NCBI RefSeq assembly: GCF_026410925.1
Contig: NZ_CP112972.1
Location: 2,418,001 to 2,482,000 of the forward strand
Length of the DNA stretch: 64,000 nucleotides
Source: Halovenus salina
GTDB lineage: Archaea; Halobacteriota; Halobacteria; Halobacteriales; Haloarculaceae
Reading direction: 5' to 3'
Shown here: piece after piece, positions 18,277-42,606 of the stretch
Layout: each line of letters starts with the position of its first letter
How positions within the stretch are numbered: position 1 is the stretch's first letter
Position numbers and translations under genes: made by a program
Notes under the pieces: generated by a model
The model's database searches: none
What the model was told of the DNA's origin: nothing
Seen by the model: only the letters and a program-made list of their open reading frames with translations

Positions 18277-19794
18277 ATGCTGACACTTACGCACATCGCT
18301 GATACGCATCTTGGCCATCGACAGTACGGGTTGAAACAACGCGAGGACGATATGGTATCGACCACGCGTGCTGCGTTCCAAGAGATGATTGAGGAGCGCG
18401 GGACGGATGCGATTCTGTTACCAGGCGACCTGTTCCACTCACGGGATTTGCGCCCGAAGATCCTGCATCAGATCGAACAGGAACTCGAACGGATACCTGA
18501 TGAGGTACCGGTGTTAGTATCGCGTGGCAACCACGATGAAAACCTGACACCGCGTGACGTGACGTGGTTGAATTACCTGCATCAGCGCGGACACATCGTG
18601 TTCTTGCAAGCCAACCTGAATGCGGATCCCGAAACAGCGTGGCTCAACCCGCACGATCCGGACGAACCGGGGCAGTCTGCAGGGTTTTATGACATCGATG
18701 TCGCGGACGTAGACGGGCCGATTCGCGTGTTCGGCCTGCAGTGGCGCGGCGCGAAGACAGACCAGGCTCTCCAGCAAGTGGCGAAGGGGATCAAGGAGAC
18801 GAATGAGATGCATGGGGAACCGGCGTGGACCGTGCTGCTGGCGCATTTCGGGATGGAAGATGAGGTGCCGACGCTCGGCGGGACAGTCACCCACGGCGAA
18901 CTGCGAGACGTGAAGGATGTCGTGGATTACCTGGCGCTCGGGCACATTCACAAGCGGTACGAGTCGGGCGAGTGGATCTACAATCCCGGGTCGCCGGAAG
19001 CGCATAACACGCGAGAAGGACGGGCTGAGTGGGAGCACGGCTACTACTCGGTTACACTCAACGCCGGAGAATCTGAGGCTGGTGGTGACGCGGTTGGGTG
19101 CGACGTGGCGCATCACCCGACGAAGCGACGGCCGTACTACCGAATTGAATTCGACGTGACCGCGCATGAGTCACCTGGTGACCTCGAAACCGCGTTTCAG
19201 GAGCACGTTCGGGATGAGCAGGCTGCGATGACAGAATACTGCAGTCAGGACGCGTTCACGGCACAGGGTGAGCCGCGAGACCCGATTATCGACCTTCGGT
19301 TCACGGGCACGTTGCAGTTCAGCCGTGGAGATTTCCGGACGGATGAGCTTGCGGAGTGGGTGGAAGACGCGTGCGACGCGTTGTACGTCCAGGTGAATAC
19401 AGGGATTCGGACGGCGAACGTGCAGCAACTCCTCTCGGAGATTGACGAGGACGAAGTGTTCAAGGATGGGCAGTTGAACACGGCTGCGTTAGAAAACCGC
19501 GTTTTCGAGACGATTGCGAAGGAATCGATCTACGATGACCACGCAGCCGATGTCGCTGACGTGTTAGGGAACGCTCATCAGATGGCTCAAGCTGGCGAAG
19601 CCGTTGAGGACATCCGTGACTCCGTGAGTTCGGCGCGCCAGGAGTTGTTCCCGGAGCTGACAGACGACGTCGTGCTGGACATTGAAGAAGATCCGTTCGC
19701 CGATGCCGACACAGGCGAGGAAGCGTCTGATGACACGACAGACGGCGACGAAGCAGACAGAGAGGCGGAGGCAGGGGAGGTGGTGGAGCAATGA
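18277..19794 (+). CDS. mre11: DNA double-strand break repair exonuclease Mre11
   Basis: A 505-residue calcineurin-like phosphoesterase with all Mre11 metal-site motifs in order: HIADTHLGH (residues 6-14), LLPGDLFHSRD (~49), VSRGNHDEN (~84), LLAHFGMEDE (~188), LGHIHKRY (~226) and YNPGSPE (~240). The C-terminal ~250 residues form the capping and Rad50-binding region, with a very acidic tail. Mre11 is a Mn-dependent 3'-5' exonuclease/endonuclease acting with Rad50 at DNA ends. The stop overlaps the rad50 start by 4 nt, so translation is coupled. It is the first gene of a five-gene repair operon lying within the island. Confidence 0.95.
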   Translation: MLTLTHIADTHLGHRQYGLKQREDDMVSTTRAAFQEMIEERGTDAILLPGDLFHSRDLRPKILHQIEQELERIPDEVPVLVSRGNHDENLTPRDVTWLNYLHQRGHIVFLQANLNADPETAWLNPHDPDEPGQSAGFYDIDVADVDGPIRVFGLQWRGAKTDQALQQVAKGIKETNEMHGEPAWTVLLAHFGMEDEVPTLGGTVTHGELRDVKDVVDYLALGHIHKRYESGEWIYNPGSPEAHNTREGRAEWEHGYYSVTLNAGESEAGGDAVGCDVAHHPTKRRPYYRIEFDVTAHESPGDLETAFQEHVRDEQAAMTEYCSQDAFTAQGEPRDPIIDLRFTGTLQFSRGDFRTDELAEWVEDACDALYVQVNTGIRTANVQQLLSEIDEDEVFKDGQLNTAALENRVFETIAKESIYDDHAADVADVLGNAHQMAQAGEAVEDIRDSVSSARQELFPELTDDVVLDIEEDPFADADTGEEASDDTTDGDEADREAEAGEVVEQ

Positions 19795-22502
19795 GAATCA
19801 CGGAAGTTGCGTTGGAAGACATCAAGTCGTATGAGGATCGGACTGTCGTGCCAATCGAAGGCGGCGTGACGGCGATTCTCGGTGAGAACGGCGCGGGGAA
19901 ATCGACGGTTCAGGAGGCTATCGGATTCGCGTTGTTCGACTCGCTCCCGTTCAACAACAAGGAGTTCGTGCGGGAAGGCGCAAGTTCAGGAACAGTCGAA
20001 GTCACGTTCGAGCAAGATACACAGAACGGGACGGACCGGTACAAAGTTGTTCGATCCGTCGGCCGGTCGAAGTACGGCGTGCACCGGTATGATCCCGATG
20101 CTGACGAGTGGATCGATCAGGACATCGATTCCAAGACGCAGTTGGTGGACTGGTTGTGTGCGCGCTTCGATGTGGAAGATGGCGACGAGCTTAGCAGTCT
20201 CTGGAGTTCCAGCATCGGGGTACCTCAAACGCGATTCCTATCGGACTTCTCGCAAACGCCTCGAAATCGCAAGGCAACGTTCGATGCGCTCCTGAATCTG
20301 GACGCGTACGAGGAGTCGTGGGAGACGCTCAAGGACGTGCCGGACGCAATCGAGAGTCGGCAGCAGGATCTCCGTAGGGACATTGATACGCTCACCGGCG
20401 AGGTGCAAGGGTTGCCGGACGAGCGAGCGGAAGCGGAGTCGTTGGCCGATGACGTTGAGGAAATTGAAGCCGGGATCGAACGGAAAACCGGCGAGTTGTC
20501 GGAGAAAGAAGACGAGTATGAAGAGTTGGAAGCTGTTGAAGAGGAAATCGACCGCCTTGACCAGGAGGTTGATTCGCTGGAAGGGGACATCGACTCGACA
20601 GAGAGCAATTTGGGGACGGCGAAGGAGGAACTCGCGGCCGCCGAAGAGGCACAGGAGAAATGCGAGGCGAACCGGGAAGGGCACCGTCGGTACGAGGAGG
20701 CACGCGAGCGGCAGGATGAGTTAGAGGAACAGGAGGTCGAACGGGACGCGCTCGTCGCGGACCGAGACGAACAGGAAGACACGATCCAGGCGATCGAATT
20801 TGAAGTCGAACAGCTGGAAGAGGATCTGGAAGAACTGGAGACCGCTCGGGAGACGTTGGAGGCGCGTGAAGAGGCGAAAGAACGGTATGAGGAACTCGAT
20901 GACCGTATTGAGTCGTTGAAAGACCGCGAAGACGACGTAGACGCATTCGAAGTGGAGATCGAGGAGTTGGCAGAGCAGATCGAATCGAAGGAGCGCGAAA
21001 TCGAGGCGAAAGAAGAGACGATTGCGGAGATAGAGGACGAGTGGGAGGGGACGACGGATCCGGAAGCTCTCTCCGGTGAGATCAACGACCGAGAGGCGAG
21101 TCGGAAGCAACTGGAGAGCGAACGTGAGCGGCTCGAAGAACAGTTAGATAGGTTGCGTGACACGGATGTTGATGCGCCGTGCCCGACGTGTGACCGTCCG
21201 TTAAACGAGGATCACCGGTCGAAGACGATCGAGCAGCGTGAAGCCCGGATCGAGGAAATCGAGACGGAGCGTGAGGAACTCGCCGAGGAACTTGATGCGT
21301 TGCGTGAGCGGCGTGCCACGGCGCGAGAGGTCAAGCAGCGCGTCGATAAGCTCCCTGTGCATCGGGACAAAATCGAGTCGTTGGAAGGTGAGATCGAAGA
21401 TTTGCGCGCCGACAAGGAAGAGACAGAGGTGGAGTTAGCGGACTTGGAAGACGAATTGTCGGATCTCCCGGATCTTGAAGCCGAGCAGGATGACTTGGAG
21501 GAGGCGTACGACGAATACCAGACTGCTGAATTCCGAGTTCAGGAGCATGCTGATGTCCCTGATGAGTTGGAGGCAAAACGGGCGGAATTAGAGGAGGAAC
21601 AGTCGGTACTGGCGGAAATCGAAGACGAGTTGGAGGAGTTCGAGGGCCTGGATGAAGAGTTGACGGAGGTCAAGGAAACGCTGGAAGAGGCGGAGTCGGC
21701 ACATCAAACGTATATCAAGTACGAGCAGCAAGCGTCGCAAGTGGAAGAGCGTCAGGAGAGAGTGGAAGACCTGGAGAGCGAGCTTGCAGACCTCGAAACG
21801 AATCTCGAAGAGACGAAGGCAGAACTGGAGGAGACGAAAGCGTCGTTCGATGAAGAACGATTCGAGACGCTGGAGTCAGACATCGAGGAACTCCGGGAGG
21901 AACTGGCCGGTGACCGGCGGTCATTAGAGCATAAGCGGGAGAATCTGGCGGAGGTTCGTGAAACGATCGAGGAGTTGGAGACGAAGCTAGAGGAGCGTCA
22001 GGAGAAACTTCAGCAGCTGAAGGAACTGAAAGCGGACCAGCAGTTCGCTGACTGGGTGCGGGAGAACGTCCGTGAGGCCGGGCCGAAAATGCGGGAGATC
22101 ATCACCGATCGGATTGGATCCCGGGCGAATGAGTTGTTCCGGTCGATTCGCGGCGCATCGGCTGAGACGCTGGAGTGGACGAGCGACTACGAAATCGTCG
22201 TCCACGATGCGGATGTCAGAAAGTCGTTTTCGACACTGAGCGGTGGGGAGAAGATGGCAGCTGCACTTGCGGTGCGACTGGCGATTCTCGAACAGTTAGC
22301 GTCCGTGGGGATCGCATTCTTGGACGAACCGACGGCGAACCTCGATCGGCAAAAGAAACGGAATCTTGTCACCCAGCTCAAACAGCTGGATAGCTTCGAG
22401 CAACTCACGGTCATTAGTCACGACCAGACGTTCGATTCGATGACTGACTACACGATCACCATCGAGAAAGACCAGCAGACGTCGGAGGTGTCGGTCAATT
22501 AA
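19791..22502 (+). CDS. rad50: DNA double-strand break repair ATPase Rad50
   Basis: A 903-residue SMC-like ATPase. N-terminal Walker A ILGENGAGKSTVQEAIGFAL (~30-48); roughly 650 residues of Glu/Leu-rich coiled coil; a zinc hook at the centre (DAPCPTCDRPL near residue 464, CxxC); C-terminal signature LSGGEKMAAALAVRLAI and Walker B IAFLDEPTANLD. Everything needed for a dimer bridged through the hook is present. It overlaps mre11 by 4 nt and abuts nurA by 1 nt. Confidence 0.95.
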   Translation: MRITEVALEDIKSYEDRTVVPIEGGVTAILGENGAGKSTVQEAIGFALFDSLPFNNKEFVREGASSGTVEVTFEQDTQNGTDRYKVVRSVGRSKYGVHRYDPDADEWIDQDIDSKTQLVDWLCARFDVEDGDELSSLWSSSIGVPQTRFLSDFSQTPRNRKATFDALLNLDAYEESWETLKDVPDAIESRQQDLRRDIDTLTGEVQGLPDERAEAESLADDVEEIEAGIERKTGELSEKEDEYEELEAVEEEIDRLDQEVDSLEGDIDSTESNLGTAKEELAAAEEAQEKCEANREGHRRYEEARERQDELEEQEVERDALVADRDEQEDTIQAIEFEVEQLEEDLEELETARETLEAREEAKERYEELDDRIESLKDREDDVDAFEVEIEELAEQIESKEREIEAKEETIAEIEDEWEGTTDPEALSGEINDREASRKQLESERERLEEQLDRLRDTDVDAPCPTCDRPLNEDHRSKTIEQREARIEEIETEREELAEELDALRERRATAREVKQRVDKLPVHRDKIESLEGEIEDLRADKEETEVELADLEDELSDLPDLEAEQDDLEEAYDEYQTAEFRVQEHADVPDELEAKRAELEEEQSVLAEIEDELEEFEGLDEELTEVKETLEEAESAHQTYIKYEQQASQVEERQERVEDLESELADLETNLEETKAELEETKASFDEERFETLESDIEELREELAGDRRSLEHKRENLAEVRETIEELETKLEERQEKLQQLKELKADQQFADWVRENVREAGPKMREIITDRIGSRANELFRSIRGASAETLEWTSDYEIVVHDADVRKSFSTLSGGEKMAAALAVRLAILEQLASVGIAFLDEPTANLDRQKKRNLVTQLKQLDSFEQLTVISHDQTFDSMTDYTITIEKDQQTSEVSVN

Positions 22503-23767
22503 TGCCGATCGATAAACACGGTGTCGCGTCTGAATTGGAGGCGAACGTTGACACGATTAAGACGTATCTCGAAGACGATACGGGGATCGTGGAGCGGTAT
22601 CAAGACGCGTTTCAGCGGTTGCCCGACGAGTGGACGAGCGAGGAGATTCGAGCGTCGCTCCAGGACGCGTCATACCCAGGGGCGTATCCGACGGACGAGT
22701 TCGATGAGGGGGATAGTCTCATCGTTCCGTACCCCGAGAGTGACGGGTGGGAGAATCACGAGGAGGTCAACGAGTGGGCCCGCGATATTATTCGTGACGT
22801 GCCGGTGATGGCTGTCGATGGGTCACAGCTCCCGCCGACAACGCAATTCAACGTTCCGCTCGCGTACGTCCAAGCGGCATGGGCAGTCAACCACCATCAC
22901 GCCGAGGGACGGCTTGACCGCGGCGTCGAAGGACGGCTCTTGACGCCTGACGAGGTCACACAAGAATCAGAGGACGGTGACTACCGGTTCGTTGATTCCC
23001 AACTCGTGGGGCATCACCGGTTCGAACACGAAGGGCGGCTACTCATCGACCAACTCTCGGAGTTAGCTGATGCGCGTGATGCAGGTGATATCGATCAGAC
23101 GCCGGTCGTGTTCTATGACGGTCCGTTGATCGCGTCGTTTGCGAATCCGTTGAAGCCAGAGACCCGAGAGCGGTACATTTCGACGCTGAGTCGAGTTATT
23201 GCAGCGAGTCAGCACCACGAGATTCCGCTGGTCGGGTACGTTGCCGGGTCGAGCGCCACTGAGCTCGTGAAGATGACACGGCTCCTGTTACGCGAGGAAT
23301 TCGGGACGGATCGCGTCATTCCGGATGCACACGTCTTGACGGAGTTGATGAGCCCGTGGGGGGACACGACAATCCCGTTCATCTCGAAACGCGATGGGAG
23401 TATCGACGCGTTGCAGACAACGTACAACGGGGAAGCGTACGAATTCCGCGATGACATCTTGTTCTCGTACCTGAACGTACCGCCAGGCGCTGGACTCGAC
23501 CGAATCGAATTCCCCGGGTGGCTGTGCCGCAGTAACGGTCCCGACGGGTACGATTCGATGTACGAGTACACCGTCGATATTGTGCGGGCAGAAGCAGGCA
23601 TCGGACGTGGCTATCCTGAAATCCTGCAACAGGCCGACAGTGACGCTGTGTTAGACCATCAGGACCGCCAACAGTTCCAGCGCGTCGTCCAACGCTGGGC
23701 TGAATCGAACGACGTACCGCTGGAATGGGACGCCAAAGCACTAAGCAAGGAACTTCGACGACGATGA
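22502..23767 (+). CDS. nurA: NurA 5'-3' nuclease
   Basis: A 421-residue NurA-domain nuclease. The Mn-binding acidic residues are in VMAVDGSQLPP (~residue 103) and VVFYDGPLIASF (~202), the two strongest NurA motifs; HEIPLVGYVAGSSATEL follows. NurA works with HerA to resect DNA ends after Mre11-Rad50. The ATG overlaps the rad50 stop (TAATG). The family assignment rests on the motifs plus the fixed mre11-rad50-nurA-herA gene order. Confidence 0.92.
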   Translation: MPIDKHGVASELEANVDTIKTYLEDDTGIVERYQDAFQRLPDEWTSEEIRASLQDASYPGAYPTDEFDEGDSLIVPYPESDGWENHEEVNEWARDIIRDVPVMAVDGSQLPPTTQFNVPLAYVQAAWAVNHHHAEGRLDRGVEGRLLTPDEVTQESEDGDYRFVDSQLVGHHRFEHEGRLLIDQLSELADARDAGDIDQTPVVFYDGPLIASFANPLKPETRERYISTLSRVIAASQHHEIPLVGYVAGSSATELVKMTRLLLREEFGTDRVIPDAHVLTELMSPWGDTTIPFISKRDGSIDALQTTYNGEAYEFRDDILFSYLNVPPGAGLDRIEFPGWLCRSNGPDGYDSMYEYTVDIVRAEAGIGRGYPEILQQADSDAVLDHQDRQQFQRVVQRWAESNDVPLEWDAKALSKELRRR

Positions 23768-23840
23768 TTCACCACCACACCCCACACGCACCAGCAGGAT
23801 GCACCGCTCGACGACCAGACAACAGTACGGAGACGAAGCT

Positions 23841-24506
23841 ATGACAGACACACTAGCTGACGGAGACAGTCCGGATCTCGATTCGTGCGTTCGGATTGGC
23901 AGCATCGTGTCCTCGAACAGCCATCTGGATTACGTCGCCGAGGTGTACAAGGAACGAGACTGTGATCGTCCACCGGAACTGCACGAGCGCGAATTCGGAC
24001 AACCCGTCTTCATCAAGAAAACTGTCGACGGAACCGAGCACGCAGTCATGGGCGTGATTTATGACACGCAGTTAGTCGATCCTGACCAGGGACGAACCGG
24101 GCCGCGATTAGCGCAGGACGACCAGGCCCAATTCACGCCGGGATACATCGAAGAGCGCACCACGCTCGCTGGCGTGGCGCTTCTCGGTACCGCAGAAATC
24201 GCCGAAGATGGGACAATACAAGAGCCAACGCATCAAATGCCGCGGTGGACGTTAGAAGTCGAGGATACCGTCTTCCACTGTCCTGATCAGGTCACGGGTT
24301 CTTTCCATACCGTCGACGATCAGATTCAGTTGGCGTACATGGATCGACTCTTAGATATTGCTGGTGACCTCGGGTCGGAGGTCATCGTCGCACTGATTGA
24401 CCGGTTACGAGGGATGCTACCGGAAGACGATCCAAATCAGCGAGTACTAGACGTGGTTGAACAGAACGTGCAGTGGCAAGCGCGGGAACAGCGAGGGATG
24501 GTCTGA
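23841..24506 (+). CDS. HerA-associated protein, HAS-barrel-like
   Basis: A 221-residue protein between nurA and herA; ATG at 23841 preferred over the ATG at 23799 because the 14 extra residues are low in acidic content. The N-terminal 130 residues are beta-rich (RIGSIVSSNSHLDYVAEVY, FGQPVFIKK, AVMGVIYDTQLVDPD) and resemble the HAS barrel that usually begins HerA itself. The C-terminus is helical. Its TGA overlaps the herA ATG by one base (TGATG). It may serve as a HerA or NurA cofactor. Family assignment is inference from pattern and position. Confidence 0.7.
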   Translation: MTDTLADGDSPDLDSCVRIGSIVSSNSHLDYVAEVYKERDCDRPPELHEREFGQPVFIKKTVDGTEHAVMGVIYDTQLVDPDQGRTGPRLAQDDQAQFTPGYIEERTTLAGVALLGTAEIAEDGTIQEPTHQMPRWTLEVEDTVFHCPDQVTGSFHTVDDQIQLAYMDRLLDIAGDLGSEVIVALIDRLRGMLPEDDPNQRVLDVVEQNVQWQAREQRGMV

Positions 24507-26149
24507 TGACTGATCGATCAGACGTGGTCGGCACCGTTGCTGGACCGGGTGACGATCCGAACGAATTCGTGTTCGTGACTCCGTCGGACAAGTCGATCAA
24601 GACGGGTGAGTTCATCACGTACACTGTCTCGGTTGAAGGTGAGCCACGATCGGTGTTCGCTCGCGTGACGAACCGTGAGCTGATTCGGGGTCTCCCTGAA
24701 GGGTTCCTTGCGGATCCGGAGGTCGGGCCGGAGACAGTTGCGGCAACGCTCGGTGTGCCGACTGATGACACTGAGTTGTACCGGTTGACAGCAACGGTCA
24801 TCGGGTACTACGATACGAACATGACGACGTTCGCTAATCCTCGCCAGTTGCCTGACCCGGGGACGCCACTGTCGATTGCACCACACCAGCAACTCGAAAC
24901 CGTGTTGCCGAACCTCGGCTGTGAAACTGACAGCACAGATGTCACAACACTTGACGGAGTCGCGCACATCGGCTGGCTGTTGAATCGACCAGCAGAGGCG
25001 ACAAATTTACACATTCCAATCGAAGAATTCGCTTCGACACACCTAGCGATTCTCGCTTCAACAGGGAGCGGGAAATCCTACACAGCGTCGGTCCTAATCG
25101 AGGAGATGATGCGTCCGAGCTCGCGTGCATCACTGCTCGTGTTTGACCCACACGGTGAGTACGACACGTTGGCGGAAATGCAGGGTGAAGAGGCGTTCCA
25201 AGGTGCAGATGGGTATGAACCAAGTATCGAGTATTACGACCCGGAGCGCCTTCGAGTTCGCATCTCTGAACTTGAGATTGGTGACGTGATGGCGATCTTG
25301 GACAACCCAAGTAATCGGATGCAAGAGCGGCTTTCGACGGCGTGGCGCGCGATGCAGAGACAAGAGAGTCGGACGTGGGGTATAGACGAACTCATTGCCG
25401 AAATGGAGCGGATCTACGGCGATGATGACGCGAGTGTCGGCGCACTAGAGTGGCGACTCCGACGGTCGATTGAACGGAATGATCTCTTCCATCCCGAAGA
25501 AAACGTTCCGCTGGACGAGATTGTAGATCCGGGGCAGTGTACGGTGCTCCAGATGGATACGTTGGATCGGTGGGACCAGCAACTTATCACGACCGTTCTT
25601 CTGCGGCGGATGTATCGAGAGCGACTTGATGACGTGCGAGACCGGGATTCGGATATCGAGCATCCGATTTTCGCCTTGTTCGAAGAGGGACACCGCTTTG
25701 CTCCAGCCTCCGGTGAAGCCCCATCGCTAGGGATCATGCGAACGATCACGTCTGAAGGCCGTAAGTTCGGATTCGGACTCGGGATTATCAGTCAACGTCC
25801 GTCGAAAATCGATCAAGACGTACTGTCGCAGTGCGGCACGCAGATCTCGATGCAGATCAAGAACCCGAATGACCAGGACGCGATCAAAAACTCCGTGGAG
25901 GCCGCTGGCGAAGACGTACTTCGGGAGTTGCCCGGGTTAACCCCAGGGCAAGCGGTCGTGTCTGGTGACGCAATGAACACGCCAGCACTGATCCAGGTTC
26001 GACAGCGACGCACACCACACGGTGCTGGAAGCAGGCCAGTTATTGAAGAATGGCGCGAAGCATATGATGAACGACAACGCGAACCGACACAGTCCGAATC
26101 GGCTGATTTCGGGGAGGGAGACTCGACTGGCGTTCAGAGCTTAGACTGA
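24506..26149 (+). CDS. herA: HerA hexameric DNA helicase/translocase
   Basis: A 547-residue protein starting at the ATG that overlaps the previous stop. HAS-barrel N-terminus (DVVGTVAGPGDDPNEFVFVT), Walker A ILASTGSGKSYTASVLIEEM (~residues 180-200), Walker B PIFALFEEGHRFAP (~390), then arginine-finger region EGRKFGFGLGIISQRPSKID and the C-terminal brace with LTPGQAVVSGDAM. All parts of a functional HerA are present. It completes the mre11-rad50-nurA-x-herA operon; the protein pumps DNA through the NurA dimer during end resection. Confidence 0.94.
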   Translation: MTDRSDVVGTVAGPGDDPNEFVFVTPSDKSIKTGEFITYTVSVEGEPRSVFARVTNRELIRGLPEGFLADPEVGPETVAATLGVPTDDTELYRLTATVIGYYDTNMTTFANPRQLPDPGTPLSIAPHQQLETVLPNLGCETDSTDVTTLDGVAHIGWLLNRPAEATNLHIPIEEFASTHLAILASTGSGKSYTASVLIEEMMRPSSRASLLVFDPHGEYDTLAEMQGEEAFQGADGYEPSIEYYDPERLRVRISELEIGDVMAILDNPSNRMQERLSTAWRAMQRQESRTWGIDELIAEMERIYGDDDASVGALEWRLRRSIERNDLFHPEENVPLDEIVDPGQCTVLQMDTLDRWDQQLITTVLLRRMYRERLDDVRDRDSDIEHPIFALFEEGHRFAPASGEAPSLGIMRTITSEGRKFGFGLGIISQRPSKIDQDVLSQCGTQISMQIKNPNDQDAIKNSVEAAGEDVLRELPGLTPGQAVVSGDAMNTPALIQVRQRRTPHGAGSRPVIEEWREAYDERQREPTQSESADFGEGDSTGVQSLD

Positions 26150-26199
26150 TCACTATCTCACAGTAGATTTACAACACTGGTGCCCGGTGTGCCATTCAT

Positions 26200-26601
26200 A
26201 TGACTACCGAGGGACTTACCCCAGGCACGCTACGAGACGCGCTCACTGATGTTGGTGTCGAACTGAACACGGGTGAAACAGCGGGATGCGTCGAATTAGA
26301 ATCCAATTTAAATATTAATGCGCTCGCAATCGGTCTCGGATTAGCGAATATCGAGTACGAGCCAGAACAATTCCCCGGTTTGATTTACCACGTAGACCAA
26401 CCAATGACCACCGCTGTGTTGTTCGGTAATGGTGTAATCGCAACAGTGGATGGGATGGATGAGCCGGCAGTTACGGATGCCATTTTGACCGTGATTGAAC
26501 GAGGGGAAGACCTCGGACTCATCGAAGCCGACTCAACACCATCAGTGAACGTGCCTGTCGAGTCAATTCCAGTCGCTGACATAGTTGAAACTGGGGAATG
26601 A
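26200..26601 (+). CDS. Single-repeat TATA-binding protein homologue
   Basis: A 133-residue protein with one TBP repeat instead of the canonical two. Residues ~35-110 read NLNINALAIGLGLANIEYEP, EQFPGLIYHV, TAVLFGNGVIATVDG and IERGEDLGLIE, which follow the second, C-terminal repeat of haloarchaeal TBPs closely. The two Phe residues of the repeat (in EQFPGL and VLFG), which in normal TBP intercalate into the TATA box, are kept. In place of the first repeat there is only a ~30-residue helix-like N-terminus, and a ~25-residue tail follows. It is 50 nt downstream of herA and probably in the same transcript. It may dimerise to rebuild a saddle or act as a regulator; both are inference. Confidence 0.85.
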   Translation: MTTEGLTPGTLRDALTDVGVELNTGETAGCVELESNLNINALAIGLGLANIEYEPEQFPGLIYHVDQPMTTAVLFGNGVIATVDGMDEPAVTDAILTVIERGEDLGLIEADSTPSVNVPVESIPVADIVETGE

Positions 26602-26640: not shown

Positions 26641-27117
26641 TTACGGAACTTCATCTACGACATCGCGTAGACCATCTGGACTGGACCAAGCGAAGCATCG
26701 ATTGTGAAGTTCGAAGAGGCGGAATTCGTTGAGATGCACCCAACTGTATGGAACTGGGGCGTCTTCGACGTCGTCTCGATTTTCAAGTCGCTCTATGATG
26801 TCTGGTTTCGCAAGATCGATATCGTTCTTGTTCGCCGCTGTGATGAGGGAGTCCAGCTCTTCTTCGGTGGTAGCTTCGTCGAGATCGTCGTTGAAGTAGA
26901 TAGTCGCGGCAGCGGCGATGACGTCTGCTTCCGTGTTGAGGTTCTGTGCGGACATCCACGCGTAGTCCCGGGGTAGCACGTAGAATTTGTCGAAGTTGTC
27001 CAACCAGCGTATCTCTCCCGACTGACCGAGCAGGCGATGGAGCGCGTGTAGTCTTCCGCGAGAGTCGGACAGAGAATCGACGAGACTAGTCCCCGAACAA
27101 CCGGGATAGGAATCCAC
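26641..27117 (-). CDS. Hypothetical protein downstream of the PLD-AAA+ gene
   Basis: Up to 158 residues, acidic, helical. The first ATG (27117) overlaps the end of the upstream gene by 32 nt in another frame; codons up to about residue 35 look poor, so the true start may be further in, before a segment reading IRWLDNFDKFYVLPRDYAWM. The middle is a helix-rich segment (ADVIAAAATIYFNDDLDEAT). No family is recognised. Because it is tightly linked to the PLD-AAA+ protein it may be a partner subunit or immunity protein. Confidence 0.55.
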   Translation of the reverse strand: MDSYPGCSGTSLVDSLSDSRGRLHALHRLLGQSGEIRWLDNFDKFYVLPRDYAWMSAQNLNTEADVIAAAATIYFNDDLDEATTEEELDSLITAANKNDIDLAKPDIIERLENRDDVEDAPVPYSWVHLNEFRLFELHNRCFAWSSPDGLRDVVDEVP

Positions 27118-29359
27118 TGGAGTTGTCCGTATCCGATGCGTCTTCCGTGGTGGTTGACTGCTCGGTGTCTGTGCCGGTTTCGGCTGCTCCGTTCAGGAGG
27201 TCGTTGACGGAGTATCCGATCCACTCGGCGAACTCTTCGGGTGCGCCGATGTAGACGCTCGTGGACGATTTCTCGGACATGAATCGTTTGGGGAGGCGTT
27301 TCTCGTAGTCGTAGACCTCGTACTCTTCGCGGTCGAAGTCAGCTGTGATGGCATTCGGCTCCGACTCGAACGTGACACGGCCGCCTTGAATGTCGCGCTG
27401 CCACTTCAGCCGCCCCGTATCGTACGTCTTCTCGGCCGGTTCGTCGGCGGGGAAATACTCGGGTTGCTCCCGACCAGCTTCGTCATAGAATTCGCGGACA
27501 ATACGGCGGACGTCTTCGATAGTGCCGTTCCCGTCGGTCCACGGTTGTTCGGTGAGCATTCGGCGGGCCACGTAACTGAAGATCGGGTTCTGCCGTTCTA
27601 GCACGCCCGAGAGGTCTTTTTGTGCTTCGCGGAAGCCTGGATCCTCCGGGTTGGAGGGGAAGGAGACGTCCATGCTCAGGATTTTCATTCGGTTCCGGAA
27701 TTCGGATTTCGGGAGAGCGTCGTTGGTCGTGAAGATGAGGCAAGGCTGATCGACGCTGGTGGGTGTCCAGTCGCCCCAGTAGTTTCGGATCGGGCTCCAG
27801 CGCTGGATCTTCTCTTTTTCGGCGTCGATGATGGCGTACGGGAAGCACGTGTCCCATTCGCGGACGCCGCGGACCTCTTTGACGCCGACGTCGTCTGCGT
27901 CCACACCGGAGATGACCGTGTTGTCGGAGACGAGTCGCAGGATGTACTCGGTGAGTTTGTCTTTCCCCGCGTCGCTCTTTCCTTCGATGTAGAGGTGCTG
28001 CAGAACGTTGTCTAGTGTTCGTGATGGTGACGACAAGGCCTCGGCGTACTGGTTGGCGAACGGGGCCCAGAACCCGTAGAGGAACGCCTCGTACATCTGC
28101 GCCATCACTGCGGTCTCGGATTGCGTGTGGCCGTGGTTCTGGACGGTCTCGATGTAGTCTTCGATGGTTTCGAGGCAGTGATCTAGAACTTCGGGGGTCG
28201 GCTCGTCGGTGGCGACGAGAATCATCTCGTCATCCTCCCCGATCACGACCTGCTCGGCCTCTGGAAGGACGGACATCGTCGGGATGGCCGTCGACTCCTT
28301 GACCTGGTTATTGTACGCGCTCAGCGGCGCGGTGATACTGTGGTCTTCGACGGTCGCCCCGCGGTCACGGAGCCCGGACCCGAACTCGTCGGCAGTGTCT
28401 TTGTCCACCTTGCTGGTTCCCATTCGTATCTTCTCGTCGGGCGCGCGGATCCGCGGCCGGTCGAGCCCGTCCGTCAGCCCCGTTTCGTGATCTGATTCGA
28501 CGAGCCCGACGTCCGGTGATTCATCCTTGTCCGGAGCGACGGTCGAGTCTTCCTCGTCAGTGGAGTCATCTGGCTCGATGACGTTGCGGTCGGCGTTCTC
28601 GGGTTCTTCGACGAATGCAACTGTCTCGTCGGCCTCCTCTGGGTCGTCAACGACGGCAGTGACCTGATCGGCGACGTCTTTCAGGTCCTCGACGGCGTCC
28701 TGATTCAGGGCGGCAGTGTCACTCACGTCGAGGTCGCCGGCTCCGACCCAGTACTCGATGCGGTTCTCCCGCTCTTCCGGCGAATCGGCTTCTTCTAGCG
28801 CCTCAACGAGCCCTTCGAGGAGCGTCTGGTCGCTGTACCCTTCGCGGTACTCGTCGATGAACCGCTCGAACTCTTCGTCCAGTTCGGTCCCGACATCGGT
28901 CGTAATGACGGAGATTTGGTTCGTATGGTACTCCCAGGAGTTCCGCGAGAGGTTCGCCGACCCTTGGACGAGCTTCACCGTGTCGTCCGGCATAACGATC
29001 CGGTAAATCTTCGAGTGGACCGTCTTCCGGTTCTTCAGCCGAATCGTGAGTCGGTCATCCTGTCGAAGTCGAACGAGTGACCTCGCCGTCGACACTTCGT
29101 TCACTTGGTCGGCGTAGTCTTCAGCGTTCCCGATAAGTACGTCCAGCGACCCGATGTCGTACTCCGTCAGCATCTGTACCATCAGCTCAGGTGTCTCCGC
29201 ATACGTCACGGCGTCCACGTGACGAGCGCCTGCGAACAGATCGAGAAAGTCAGCACGCTCTTTCACCATCGCCAGGCGGTATTCCGCAGCCCCCGATCCG
29301 TAGAACTCCGGCATATCTGCGAATCGGTCGAATGAGATATTCGCTGTCAGTTCGTCCAT
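27086..29359 (-). CDS. PLD-like nuclease fused to AAA+/SF3-like ATPase
   Basis: About 757 residues from the ATG at 29359. A box reading ataaaaa on the plus strand (TTTTTAT on the coding strand) at 29384-29390 is correctly placed for a leaderless transcript from this ATG, so the longer open frame to 29497 is rejected. Domains: PLD-type nuclease, residues 1-160, with VHSKIYRIV (His115, Lys117) and VQGSANLSRNSW (Ser134, Asn136), one HKD-like motif, so a dimer would form the active site; a very acidic linker, 235-300; an ATPase with Walker A IEGKSDAGKDKLTEY (458-472, GKD instead of GKS/T), Walker B-like FPYAIIDAEKE (506-516), sensor-1 LIFTTNDALP and possible Arg finger FRNRMK (554-559). This plan suggests an ATP-gated DNA or RNA degrader in defence. 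Confidence 0.75.
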   Translation of the reverse strand: MDELTANISFDRFADMPEFYGSGAAEYRLAMVKERADFLDLFAGARHVDAVTYAETPELMVQMLTEYDIGSLDVLIGNAEDYADQVNEVSTARSLVRLRQDDRLTIRLKNRKTVHSKIYRIVMPDDTVKLVQGSANLSRNSWEYHTNQISVITTDVGTELDEEFERFIDEYREGYSDQTLLEGLVEALEEADSPEERENRIEYWVGAGDLDVSDTAALNQDAVEDLKDVADQVTAVVDDPEEADETVAFVEEPENADRNVIEPDDSTDEEDSTVAPDKDESPDVGLVESDHETGLTDGLDRPRIRAPDEKIRMGTSKVDKDTADEFGSGLRDRGATVEDHSITAPLSAYNNQVKESTAIPTMSVLPEAEQVVIGEDDEMILVATDEPTPEVLDHCLETIEDYIETVQNHGHTQSETAVMAQMYEAFLYGFWAPFANQYAEALSSPSRTLDNVLQHLYIEGKSDAGKDKLTEYILRLVSDNTVISGVDADDVGVKEVRGVREWDTCFPYAIIDAEKEKIQRWSPIRNYWGDWTPTSVDQPCLIFTTNDALPKSEFRNRMKILSMDVSFPSNPEDPGFREAQKDLSGVLERQNPIFSYVARRMLTEQPWTDGNGTIEDVRRIVREFYDEAGREQPEYFPADEPAEKTYDTGRLKWQRDIQGGRVTFESEPNAITADFDREEYEVYDYEKRLPKRFMSEKSSTSVYIGAPEEFAEWIGYSVNDLLNGAAETGTDTEQSTTTEDASDTDNSSGFLSRLFGD

Positions 29360-29383
29360 ACACACGGCAGCGGTCTGAAACGA

Positions 29384-29390
29384 ATAAAAA
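29384..29390 (-). promoter_or_regulatory. TATA box of the PLD-AAA+ gene
   Basis: TTTTTAT on the minus strand, 25-31 nt before the ATG at 29359. This is the haloarchaeal spacing for a transcript that begins at or next to the start codon and decides the start of that gene. Confidence 0.6.
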
Positions 29391-29611
29391 CCGTGCCGTG
29401 GGGCGGTAGTAGAACATACGCTGTCGACACTTGGTGACACTTCGACAGCGATGAGCGAGACTGACATCCTCCCGTGCCGGAGACAAGGGAATTCCACGGC
29501 ACTACACCGCTGGATTTGGTCGTTGATTCGCCACCTATATTGTTAAATTTATAAGAAATAGTTGAGGCAGGCAGTCTTCGAATCGTTCTATACCCTGCGT
29601 AAGCGAGATTA

Positions 29612-33548: not shown

Positions 33549-34424
33549 TTAGTTGGACGAGGGGTGAACAGTCTCCCCTTCTCGGTCAAGAATTTCCTTT
33601 TCGACGAGACGATCGATCCCAGCAGACACCGCCTCCTCGTCGCCAACGGAGAGCTCTCGGACGTTCGAAAGAACACGTTCGCTGATCGCGCGTGGACTCC
33701 GAAGACCCTCATCGACCGCTTCCAAGATACCGTACTCAACTTCGAATTCGGTTGCGAACTCCGACACGCGATCCGTAAACGAGGATGGCAGCCCGGAAAG
33801 CGACTGTACAGCCACCTCGATAGTAAATAACGGATGAGATTGATTACGGATATGCGTCGCTTCAATTGACCCCGTATTGAACGGGCGCTGTTCCTCAATC
33901 TCGTTGAGGATCTCCTCGTAGGCGAGTCCACGCTGCGCGTACGTCCGCATATCCTCAATGTCGCGTCGTCTGCCAGCCCCTAAGTCGCCACCGGACACTG
34001 CCTTCAACAAGAACAAATCCTCATCAGCGAGCACGTACGCCGTTGCATACTCCCCTGTCCAGAACTCGTCCGCCCGGTCGTGCATGCTCTCTGTGATCCA
34101 GACTTTCCCGACAACCTGTTGCTCGAACAAGTCAACCCGAAACCCGCGGCCAGGATGGTAGAGCTCAACCGTTTTTCCAACCCCTTCGAATGACGCGGTC
34201 GGCTCACCCGTCACCTGAAACCCTTGTTCTCGAAGGGCGTGGTAGACGTGTTTGAATTCGGTTGGCACGCCGAGGGCCAAGTCGATATCTTCGGTTTGGT
34301 CTTTCAGCCCGCGAACTGTCATTGCAGACCCGCCAAGGAGGTACACGTCCACCGGTTCTGAGAGCCACTCGTCAAACTCGGCAAGAAACGTCTTGATGGC
34401 CTCCTCGCCGCTGAAGACGGTCAT
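33549..34424 (-). CDS. Nucleotidyltransferase, AbiEii-like toxin candidate
   Basis: A 291-residue protein with a DNA-polymerase-beta-type nucleotidyltransferase core: VYLLGGSAMTVRGL (GGSA at 31-34), TEDIDLAL (Asp46, Asp48) and FRVDLFEQ (Asp98 as third metal ligand). A helical region and a C-terminal winged-helix-like end (AISERVLSNVRELSV) follow. AbiEii/MenT enzymes add nucleotides to tRNA or similar targets and are neutralised by the AbiEi partner. The ATG follows directly on the stop of the upstream regulator with no gap. Toxin role is inferred from gene order and operator. Confidence 0.75.
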   Translation of the reverse strand: MTVFSGEEAIKTFLAEFDEWLSEPVDVYLLGGSAMTVRGLKDQTEDIDLALGVPTEFKHVYHALREQGFQVTGEPTASFEGVGKTVELYHPGRGFRVDLFEQQVVGKVWITESMHDRADEFWTGEYATAYVLADEDLFLLKAVSGGDLGAGRRRDIEDMRTYAQRGLAYEEILNEIEEQRPFNTGSIEATHIRNQSHPLFTIEVAVQSLSGLPSSFTDRVSEFATEFEVEYGILEAVDEGLRSPRAISERVLSNVRELSVGDEEAVSAGIDRLVEKEILDREGETVHPSSN

Positions 34425-35381
34425 TTATACGACTCCATACTGATCTTTCAGCGCCGCGTATTCTTGAGCACTCGGCAAGGGACTTCCCGCCTCCATCTCA
34501 TCGGCGGCGTCAGTGCCTTCGTCTATAAGACGATACATCCGGGGTATCATTGAGTCCAGACCGTACCAAGTCGCAGTCTCGGTGAGTGTTTCCTGTTCGA
34601 TTCGTTCCTGTTCGATGAGCAGCATCGCGTAGCTCACGCGTCGGGAGTCAGTGTTGAGGACGAGCGTATGGCAAACGATGTCTGCAAGGGTGAGATCGTC
34701 GTCTGGCGCGTACCAGAAGGCGGGTTCTCCTGCAAGGAAGAACTGCAGGCCGTACGCTTGGAATTCCGCTAATCCAGTCACGTCCCAGTCGTCGGCGTTC
34801 TGGAATTTCTCCGTGTCTTCGGAGGTTTGTACTTGGACGAGCGCGCGTTTCGGGTCATACCACGCAATTGTGGCACTGGGCGCGAGTCGCCGAACACGGT
34901 TGCGGTGGCCATGCCTGACGACGGTGTTGGCGAATTCGAGTAAGGGGTGAAGGTCGTCGGCGAGTGCGTACTCTGGGCCGGCGGGAGCGAGCATCGCTCG
35001 GTTCTTCAACGGGGATAACACCTTGTGGACAGCCTGTCGCGTAATTCCTAATCGGTCAGCGATCGTGGTGATGCGGCGTGGTTCATCAAGGTACCAGCAG
35101 ACCTGTATCGTGGCCGGTGAGAGGAGGTCCGCCCAGTCCACGTGCCCGAGGTTCGATGTCAGGTCCCGGTACGCTTCGACAATCGGGTCGTCAGAGGCGC
35201 GCAGGACACGCTGGTTGTGCTGCGCTCGGGACTCGTCCAGTACCCCTTTGTCGAGTAAGTCGTCAACGACGCGGTAGACCTGCTTGCGACTATACCCGGT
35301 TTCTGCGGCCAGCTCTTGTGCGGTTGCGTCCGCCCCGGAACTCAGCACGTCTAGAATAGCGAGCCCGGCCTTCGTAAGCAT
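34425..35381 (-). CDS. Winged-helix regulator, AbiEi-like antitoxin candidate
   Basis: A 318-residue protein with two winged helices: residues 1-45 (ATAQELAAETGYSRKQVYRV, a helix-turn-helix) and about 90-130 (RITTIADRLGITRQAVHKVL). The rest is an alpha/beta domain (FQAYGLQFFLAGEPAFWYAP). It is the first gene of the pair with the nucleotidyltransferase. AbiEi proteins are autorepressors that bind inverted repeats in their own promoter, and such repeats are present at 35384-35437. The protein is longer than typical AbiEi, so it may be a haloarchaeal variant. Confidence 0.75.
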   Translation of the reverse strand: MLTKAGLAILDVLSSGADATAQELAAETGYSRKQVYRVVDDLLDKGVLDESRAQHNQRVLRASDDPIVEAYRDLTSNLGHVDWADLLSPATIQVCWYLDEPRRITTIADRLGITRQAVHKVLSPLKNRAMLAPAGPEYALADDLHPLLEFANTVVRHGHRNRVRRLAPSATIAWYDPKRALVQVQTSEDTEKFQNADDWDVTGLAEFQAYGLQFFLAGEPAFWYAPDDDLTLADIVCHTLVLNTDSRRVSYAMLLIEQERIEQETLTETATWYGLDSMIPRMYRLIDEGTDAADEMEAGSPLPSAQEYAALKDQYGVV

Positions 35382-35437: not shown

Positions 35438-35626
35438 CCAGCCTCTATACCGTCGGAATCCCCCGGGTGAAGGATTGTGACTTCCAGCCTCTTCTCAGTT
35501 GGAACACAGACGAGAATCCGCGCGGGACGCGAAGAGTACCGAGTCGAGTTTAACGAATTGGTCGTGAGGGAATCCGAGGGGGTCGCCCACGCACCGCTCC
35601 GTGGGCATTTGAACCGTGAGTATGAT

Positions 35627-35646
35627 GCCGCCTCCCCGATTTGAAC
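35627..35646. repeat. Attachment-site-like copy of the tRNA-Phe 3' end
   Basis: gccgcctccccgatttgaac is identical to 42533-42552, the T-arm and acceptor 3' half of the tRNA-Phe gene; identity extends 2 nt further left (35625-35626). Divergence begins immediately after, so only the 3' end is copied, as expected for an att site. Confidence 0.75.
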
Positions 35647-42531: not shown

Positions 42532-42606
42532 TGCCGCCTCCCCGATTTGAACGGGGGACAGCTCGATCTTCAGTCGAGTGCTCTCCCAGTCTGAGCTAAG
42601 GCGGCC
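42532..42606 (-). tRNA. tRNA-Phe (anticodon GAA)
   Basis: On the minus strand the acceptor stem GCCGCCU pairs fully with AGGCGGC, the D-arm is AGCUCAGACUGGGAGAGC, the anticodon loop is CUGAAGA within a CUCGA/UCGAG stem, and the T-arm contains GUUCAAAUC. The anticodon GAA gives phenylalanine. The discriminator is A and CCA is not encoded. Its 3' end is the integration target repeated at 35627 and 42246. Confidence 0.95.

Follow-up and report, generated by a model that had tools for sequence, protein, structure and literature searches.

The TATA-binding proteins (TBPs) are a family in which two tandem lobes form a saddle, and the protein probably goes back to a duplicated single-lobe ancestor, according to excerpts of PMC7221094 and PMC4132731. 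The same excerpts describe single TBP-like lobes in the N-terminal domain of RNase H3 and in RnlA, an anti-phage toxin, in both cases as domains of larger enzymes. Excerpts of PMC7221094 further indicate that two acidic positions of the C-terminal lobe (C-lobe), C.L3.2 and C.L3.4, contact TFIIB/TFB and that the aromatic residue at L5.1 of a TBP lobe contacts nucleic acid. In TbpC-like haloarchaeal TBPs, the phenylalanines of the N-terminal lobe (N-lobe) are lost, leaving DNA-binding phenylalanines in the C-lobe only, while both lobes are kept (PMC4230888, excerpts). One defense system relevant here is Shango, composed of SngA, SngB, and SngC (PMC10250203, excerpts).

Here we describe TBP1, a free-standing one-lobe TBP encoded in the window, which is the whole 64,000-nucleotide stretch of Halovenus salina DNA that was analyzed. 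TBP1 shares its fold, its family profile, and both intercalating phenylalanines with the C-lobe of ordinary archaeal TBPs of the haloarchaeal TbpE type, but it has no first lobe, has lost five residues on the DNA side, and carries a conserved tail of 25 residues; it is 133 aa long, whereas ordinary TBPs are mostly ~190 aa. Like TbpC-like proteins, it has DNA-binding phenylalanines in a C-lobe only, but unlike them it does not keep the other lobe, and unlike the lobes of RNase H3 and RnlA it is not part of a larger enzyme. No earlier case of a free-standing one-lobe archaeal TBP was recognized in the part of the literature that our search covered. A natural free lobe derived from a modern archaeal TBP raises the question of what half a TBP does: whether it binds TFB, binds DNA as a dimer, or does neither.

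The TBP1 gene and its single TBP lobe

TBP1 lies directly after an extra set of mre11, rad50, nurA, and herA genes, on a mobile island. The features of the window used below are as follows.

18277 to 19794, plus strand: extra mre11 (calcineurin-like phosphoesterase), gene 1 of the cassette; another Mre11 is encoded elsewhere in the genome
19791 to 22502, plus strand: rad50-like SMC ATPase
22502 to 23767, plus strand: nurA nuclease (PF09376, E value of 9e-25)
23799 to 24506, plus strand: X, a conserved 235-aa partner between nurA and herA, with no Pfam match up to an E value of 0.01
24473 to 26149, plus strand: herA ATPase
26168 to 26174, plus strand: putative box-A-like element TTTACAA, identified by eye, -32 to -26 from the TBP1 ATG
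26200 to 26601, plus strand: TBP1, one-lobe TBP gene, 133 aa (head, residues 1 to 25; TBP lobe, residues ~26 to 108; conserved tail, residues 109 to 133)
27086 to 29497, minus strand: PLD-domain protein (weak Pfam match, below cut-off)
35625 to 35646, plus strand: att-like copy of the tRNA-Phe 3' end
42244: second copy of the tRNA-Phe 3' end, with 2 mismatches
42532 to 42605: tRNA-Phe gene

The TBP1 reading frame begins with ATG, 50 bp after the herA stop codon (26149), and its placement by the initial annotation directly behind herA is borne out, on an island that is mobile. The 133-aa product contains one TBP stretch (PF00352, residues 29 to 96, E value of 5.3e-12) that scores 45.9 bits against a curated cut-off of 22.9; a Pfam search up to an E value of 1 returned nothing besides TBP, and no nuclease domain is fused to the lobe. 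In NCBIfam, TBP1 matches best over the second half of a TBP model (positions 106 to 186 of 186 in the profile), and among the NCBIfam TBP models in the matches listed, nine of ten are hit through their C-terminal half and one through its N-terminal half. We also searched all six frames of the 900 bp upstream of TBP1 with an N-lobe profile, which scored 173.8 bits in a positive control. Nothing significant was found (best E value of 0.84), and the 900 bp upstream of the copy in Halosimplex pelagicum likewise held no first lobe in six frames. A missing first repeat in another frame, which had been named as a possible flaw in the one-repeat reading, was therefore rejected. The protein thus has a single complete repeat, as first claimed, and none of the five loci that carry it encodes the two-lobe saddle of the family. 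The claimed closeness to a C-terminal-type repeat is also supported, both by these half-model matches and by the lobe trees described below, and the motifs quoted for it, including VLFGNG, are present.

Both the head and the tail of TBP1 are conserved within the family. They had been described as short and unrelated to TBP; they are short, but "unrelated" perhaps does not apply to the head, which our alignment (A2) places, with gaps, over the final helix of the first repeat in ordinary TBPs. The tail was not seen in the ordinary TBPs aligned. AlphaFold modeling with 27 sequences predicted one TBP lobe with a leading helix (pLDDT of 75.8), with strand S1 predicted at residues 27 to 32; a run with five sequences gave a pLDDT of 43.3 and was not used. 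A Foldseek search of the PDB returned 44 matches at an E value of 0.001 or better (6e-07 to 3e-04), all of them TBPs or TBP-holding complexes judging by their titles, and a search of viral folds gave weaker TBP-like matches only. TBP1 is very acidic, with lysine and arginine at 2 of 133 residues and a net charge of -22.

The TTTACAA element is also found ahead of TBP1 in Halosimplex salinum, in Halorubrum amylolyticum, and in one further genome (G011). In H. pelagicum, the upstream sequence is otherwise unlike that of the window, and TTATAAA is found at -31 to -25. TBP1 therefore appears to have its own promoter-like box A, at near-equal spacing in both settings.

Family members, selection, and descent of the lobe

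Five loci carry the 133-aa layout, and the four others are 99, 92, 91, and 57% identical to TBP1 of the window. When 146 genomes from the taxonomic family of the window were searched at the protein level, four had matches over the full length (residues 1 to 133): the window's own genome, H. salinum YPL4 (99%), G011 (92%), and H. pelagicum R2 (57%). The copy in H. amylolyticum ZC67 (91%) was added by a contig search of the best 80 of 507 relatives. At class level, a profile search found full-length TBP1 in 2 of 391 genomes, both known already, while a second family had it in 1 of 170 genomes, at a locus identical to that of H. amylolyticum over 3,396 bases, and a third family had it in 0 of 125; the genome sets behind all of these counts overlap, and in many genomes scoring was limited to a subset of the first-look candidates. 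No full-length relative was found in a plasmid collection, where none of 71 records reaches 80% query coverage, or in two scans of IMG/VR, which gave one partial match.

The family is small and real. Among the four close copies, dN/dS (Nei-Gojobori) is 0.22 to 0.25 in five of six pairs, and the sixth pair (window and H. salinum) is separated by a single change, which is nonsynonymous. Compared with the H. pelagicum copy, dN is 0.32 to 0.34, and dS is 2.65 in one of four pairs (dN/dS of 0.12) and saturated in the other three. Three copies of herA, taken as a yardstick, gave a dN/dS of 0.03 to 0.04, indicating that TBP1 is under selection but evolves faster than herA. The concern that TBP1 might be a lone decayed copy is not borne out, given four further loci with the same layout and these dN/dS values.

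Short TBP frames were also surveyed within a set of fetched loci. Two candidates (L123 and L158) were rejected as members because the other lobe lies in a neighboring frame or behind a stop codon. Two more (L122 and L157) were rejected because they join a C-lobe to an unrelated start and have the usual residues on the DNA side, features that make them look like truncated ordinary genes.

The phage hits of the TBP1 search exceed TBP1 in length, at 179 aa (HRTV-9) and 204 aa (HJTV-2, two records), and the 204-aa protein has two TBP stretches. These haloviruses (L154 and L155) carry them as annotated TBP genes near restriction-modification genes. Approximately 3 kb to the left of the window (G000:C1:2413919-2415114; L121, 9908 to 11136), two two-lobe TBPs are encoded in divergent orientation between methylase genes resembling those of type I restriction systems. 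On visual inspection, the usual intercalating phenylalanines are missing from both N-lobes, as in TbpC.

To place the lobe, we used a tree of 38 lobes, thinned by identity from 110, in which four of the five TBP1 copies were included. TBP1 and the lobe of a 236-aa protein, L126, form one clade (98/99) on the C-lobe side, separate from all 17 N-lobes (94/88). L126 was flagged as a long branch by the tree program; when it was removed, the four TBP1 lobes made up a single clade (100/100) and stayed on the C-lobe side (96/89). TBP1 therefore most likely descends from the C-lobe of an ordinary TBP. It groups with archaeal TBP C-lobes in trees that held no RNase H3 or RnlA sequence, and with neither the L121 nor the viral C-lobes (Halobacterium TbpC was not placed as such). 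Since the head lines up, with gaps, with the final helix of lobe 1, the simplest history would be one in which most of lobe 1 was lost.

L126, present in 1 of 391 genomes, shares with TBP1 its S1 and S5 changes and has a similar tail. Unlike TBP1, it has an extra stretch ahead of the lobe, perhaps a worn first lobe as judged by eye, and a weak C-terminal zinc-ribbon match, and it lacks the glutamates of the stirrup. The L126 cluster (L203, 836 to 8994, genome G284) encodes two Ser/Thr protein kinases, a PP2C phosphatase, and FHA proteins, and it adjoins tbsP.

Genomic settings of TBP1

Four TBP1 copies come after a mobile mre11-rad50-nurA-X-herA cassette. The cassette is an extra set, since the genome's other Mre11, which is the better match to that of H. 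pelagicum, is encoded 0.8 Mb away. X was found in 41 of 391 genomes of the class, and we examined 24 cassette loci: the window, five further loci (L118, L119, L039, L200, and L206), and 18 fetched regions, which are the best-scoring 18 of the other 39 X hits and not a random draw. TBP1 is intact in 4 of the 24. At a fifth (L182), its last 27 residues alone remain, 1.6 kb downstream, and the other 19 gave no TBP1 at an E value of up to 1, one of these (L190) being uninformative because its contig ends inside herA. TBP1 is thus an optional gene of the cassette. A relative of the PLD-domain protein is found near the cassette in at least 12 of the 22 other cassette loci, a count bounded by locus ends.

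The fifth and most diverged TBP1 copy, that of H. pelagicum, is situated 102 bp downstream of a complete SngA-SngB-SngC operon, whose products match the PADLOC Shango models with E values of 3.8e-83, 6e-172, and 3.8e-266, respectively. Downstream of this copy are an HNH gene and a Mre11-Rad50 pair only distantly similar to that of the cassette. On DL31 plasmid phalar01 (L206, 8269 to 22257) and on a Natrinema zhouii plasmid (L207/L200), Shango directly precedes the cassette, with 206 bp between the two. Both homes of TBP1 therefore belong to one kind of super-locus, and Shango and mre11-rad50-nurA-X-herA may form a combined defense locus. On a Halocatena salina plasmid, the cassette is not adjacent to Shango within the 14 kb examined. 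In the stretches examined, TBP1 was absent at an E value of up to 1 from the DL31, N. zhouii, and Halocatena salina Shango loci, so that it is present in one of the four haloarchaeal Shango loci examined, and TBP1 is not a Shango component. The initial annotation had suggested a regulator tied to the mre11-rad50-nurA-herA operon or to transcription of the element; a tie to this one operon is not supported in that form, given 4 intact copies in 24 loci and a most diverged copy behind Shango. Among the hits screened, part of those returned, our literature searches covering the cassette as well as Shango and Ter systems turned up no account of this locus.

Up to ~42 kb, where the tRNA-Phe gene sits, the island has a low GC content. 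The three tRNA-Phe 3' ends, at 35625, 42244, and 42532 to 42605, suggest nested insertions at one tRNA gene. The H. salinum locus is 99.6% identical to the window over 17 kb and then 97.4% identical up to its own tRNA-Phe gene. The GC3 of TBP1 is 0.48, compared with 0.60 to 0.69 for mre11, rad50, nurA, and herA, which points to separate acquisition. Defense-like genes around TBP1 encode GmrSD, an OLD/AriA-like ATPase, the PLD-domain protein, and an Eco57I-like methylase. At 33552 to 34424 (minus strand) is a gene with a weak, below-cut-off nucleotidyltransferase match, adjoining a gene for an HVO_2833-type winged-helix protein (34428 to 35381).

Residue pattern and candidate functions

We mapped the acidic positions C.L3.2 and C.L3.4 onto E54 and E56 of TBP1. 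This stirrup pair is Glu-Glu in four of the five family members and Asp-Glu in H. pelagicum, and the TbpE-type stirrup EPEQFPG reads EPER in two copies and DPEQ in one. The intercalating pair, F58 and F75, is kept in all five proteins.

The DNA side of the lobe is different. We take the S1 Asn, the S3 Arg, the Lys of SGK, the S5 Thr, and the Lys of GGK to be DNA contacts in TBP-DNA structures. These residues are present in 19, 19, 19, 19, and 18, respectively, of 19 ordinary C-lobes (the two L121 C-lobes excluded), and all five positions are changed in each of the five TBP1 proteins. TBP1 of the window keeps 0 of these 5 residues compared with 37 of 59 other near-invariant positions (Fisher test framed after the data were seen, P = 0.011). 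The L121 C-lobes keep four of the five DNA-side residues in one protein and two in the other, indicating that this loss is not limited to the one-lobe form.

We consider it most probable, at roughly 40%, that TBP1 is a mimic of the TBP C-lobe that binds TFB, holds TATA DNA poorly, and tunes transcription around defense loci. TBP1 would bind TFB through the conserved stirrup residues E54 and E56 and would be unable to grip TATA DNA well. It could then remove TFB from TBP-TATA complexes or hold it for one set of promoters, with the outcome that transcription of the surroundings of defense genes, or of invading DNA, would be damped or redirected. The lone lobe, its conservation and selection, its grouping with C-lobes, its two defense settings, and the residue pattern are observations, whereas TFB binding, loss of DNA binding, and an effect on transcription are inferred.

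The retained features also invite a different reading, that of a half-saddle homodimer in which two TBP1 chains pair through S1 and bind a palindromic TATA-like site, such as their own box A, in an autoregulatory manner. Both intercalating phenylalanines, the predicted S1 strand, and the promoter-like box would fit such a dimer, but the loss of the five presumed DNA-contact residues in every copy, the S1 Asn and S5 Thr among them, does not, and nine near-invariant positions in or just after S1, the pairing strand, are changed in TBP1 of the window. Because the DNA-side residues are lost while the phenylalanines and the acidic stirrup are kept, we favor a TFB-capturing half-TBP over a TATA-binding homodimer, which we consider unlikely. 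We think it equally improbable that the lobe is a subunit that docks nucleic acid or protein for HerA-NurA-Mre11-Rad50 or for SngC, as the one-lobe N-terminal domain does for RNase H3. TBP1 comes last in two ATPase/helicase operons that belong to a single kind of super-locus, and one-lobe TBP-like domains exist in RNase H3 and RnlA (PMC7221094 and PMC4132731, excerpts); TBP1 is missing, however, even as a remnant, from most of the cassette loci (19 of 24, one of them cut inside herA) and from three of four Shango loci, so that it is no core subunit, and its strong acidity and its own promoter-like box also count against this reading.

TBP1 might instead be a relic or a selfish passenger, in which case the island would be carrying along a truncated tbp gene that is heading for loss. 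The remnant at L182, the low GC3, and the small number of loci would be expected of such a gene, and truncated one-lobe tbp frames do occur, at L122 and L157. Relaxed decay sits poorly, however, with the dN/dS of the close copies and with the low dN relative to dS against the H. pelagicum copy, as well as with an equal length across five loci in two contexts and a conserved tail absent from the ordinary TBPs aligned. The selection test disfavors the relic reading, and we regard it as the least probable of those weighed here.

Several observations also count against TFB capture by TBP1. The stirrup positions are Gln/Asp in L126, so that TFB contact would not be retained throughout the clade, and Asp replaces the first Glu in H. 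pelagicum. Both phenylalanines and a hydrophobic sheet are retained, which is unexpected if DNA binding was simply lost; these phenylalanines may help to pack the sheet or may contact a different partner. The family is tiny, its link to the cassette is loose, the C-lobes of L121 show similar losses, and TBP1 evolves faster than herA. Ordinary haloarchaeal C-lobes are acidic as well, with net charges of -10 to -21 over 118 aa.

The position of TBP1 behind two defense operons suggests that some archaeal immunity acts on, or is tuned through, the basal transcription machinery, and the analysis also brings out Shango and mre11-rad50-nurA-X-herA as a locus resembling a combined defense system. More broadly and more doubtfully, haloarchaeal defense islands might be equipped with a dedicated half-TBP, a free-standing protein that gates transcription during immunity by capturing TFB; a decoy for a general transcription factor would then serve as an immune regulator or effector. 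The TFB-like genes of the host genome, nine with two repeats plus a weaker single match above the cut-off, all lie outside the window. A TFB (PF00382) match at G000:C1:260615-260833 lies in an open frame of 141 aa, possibly a one-repeat TFB.
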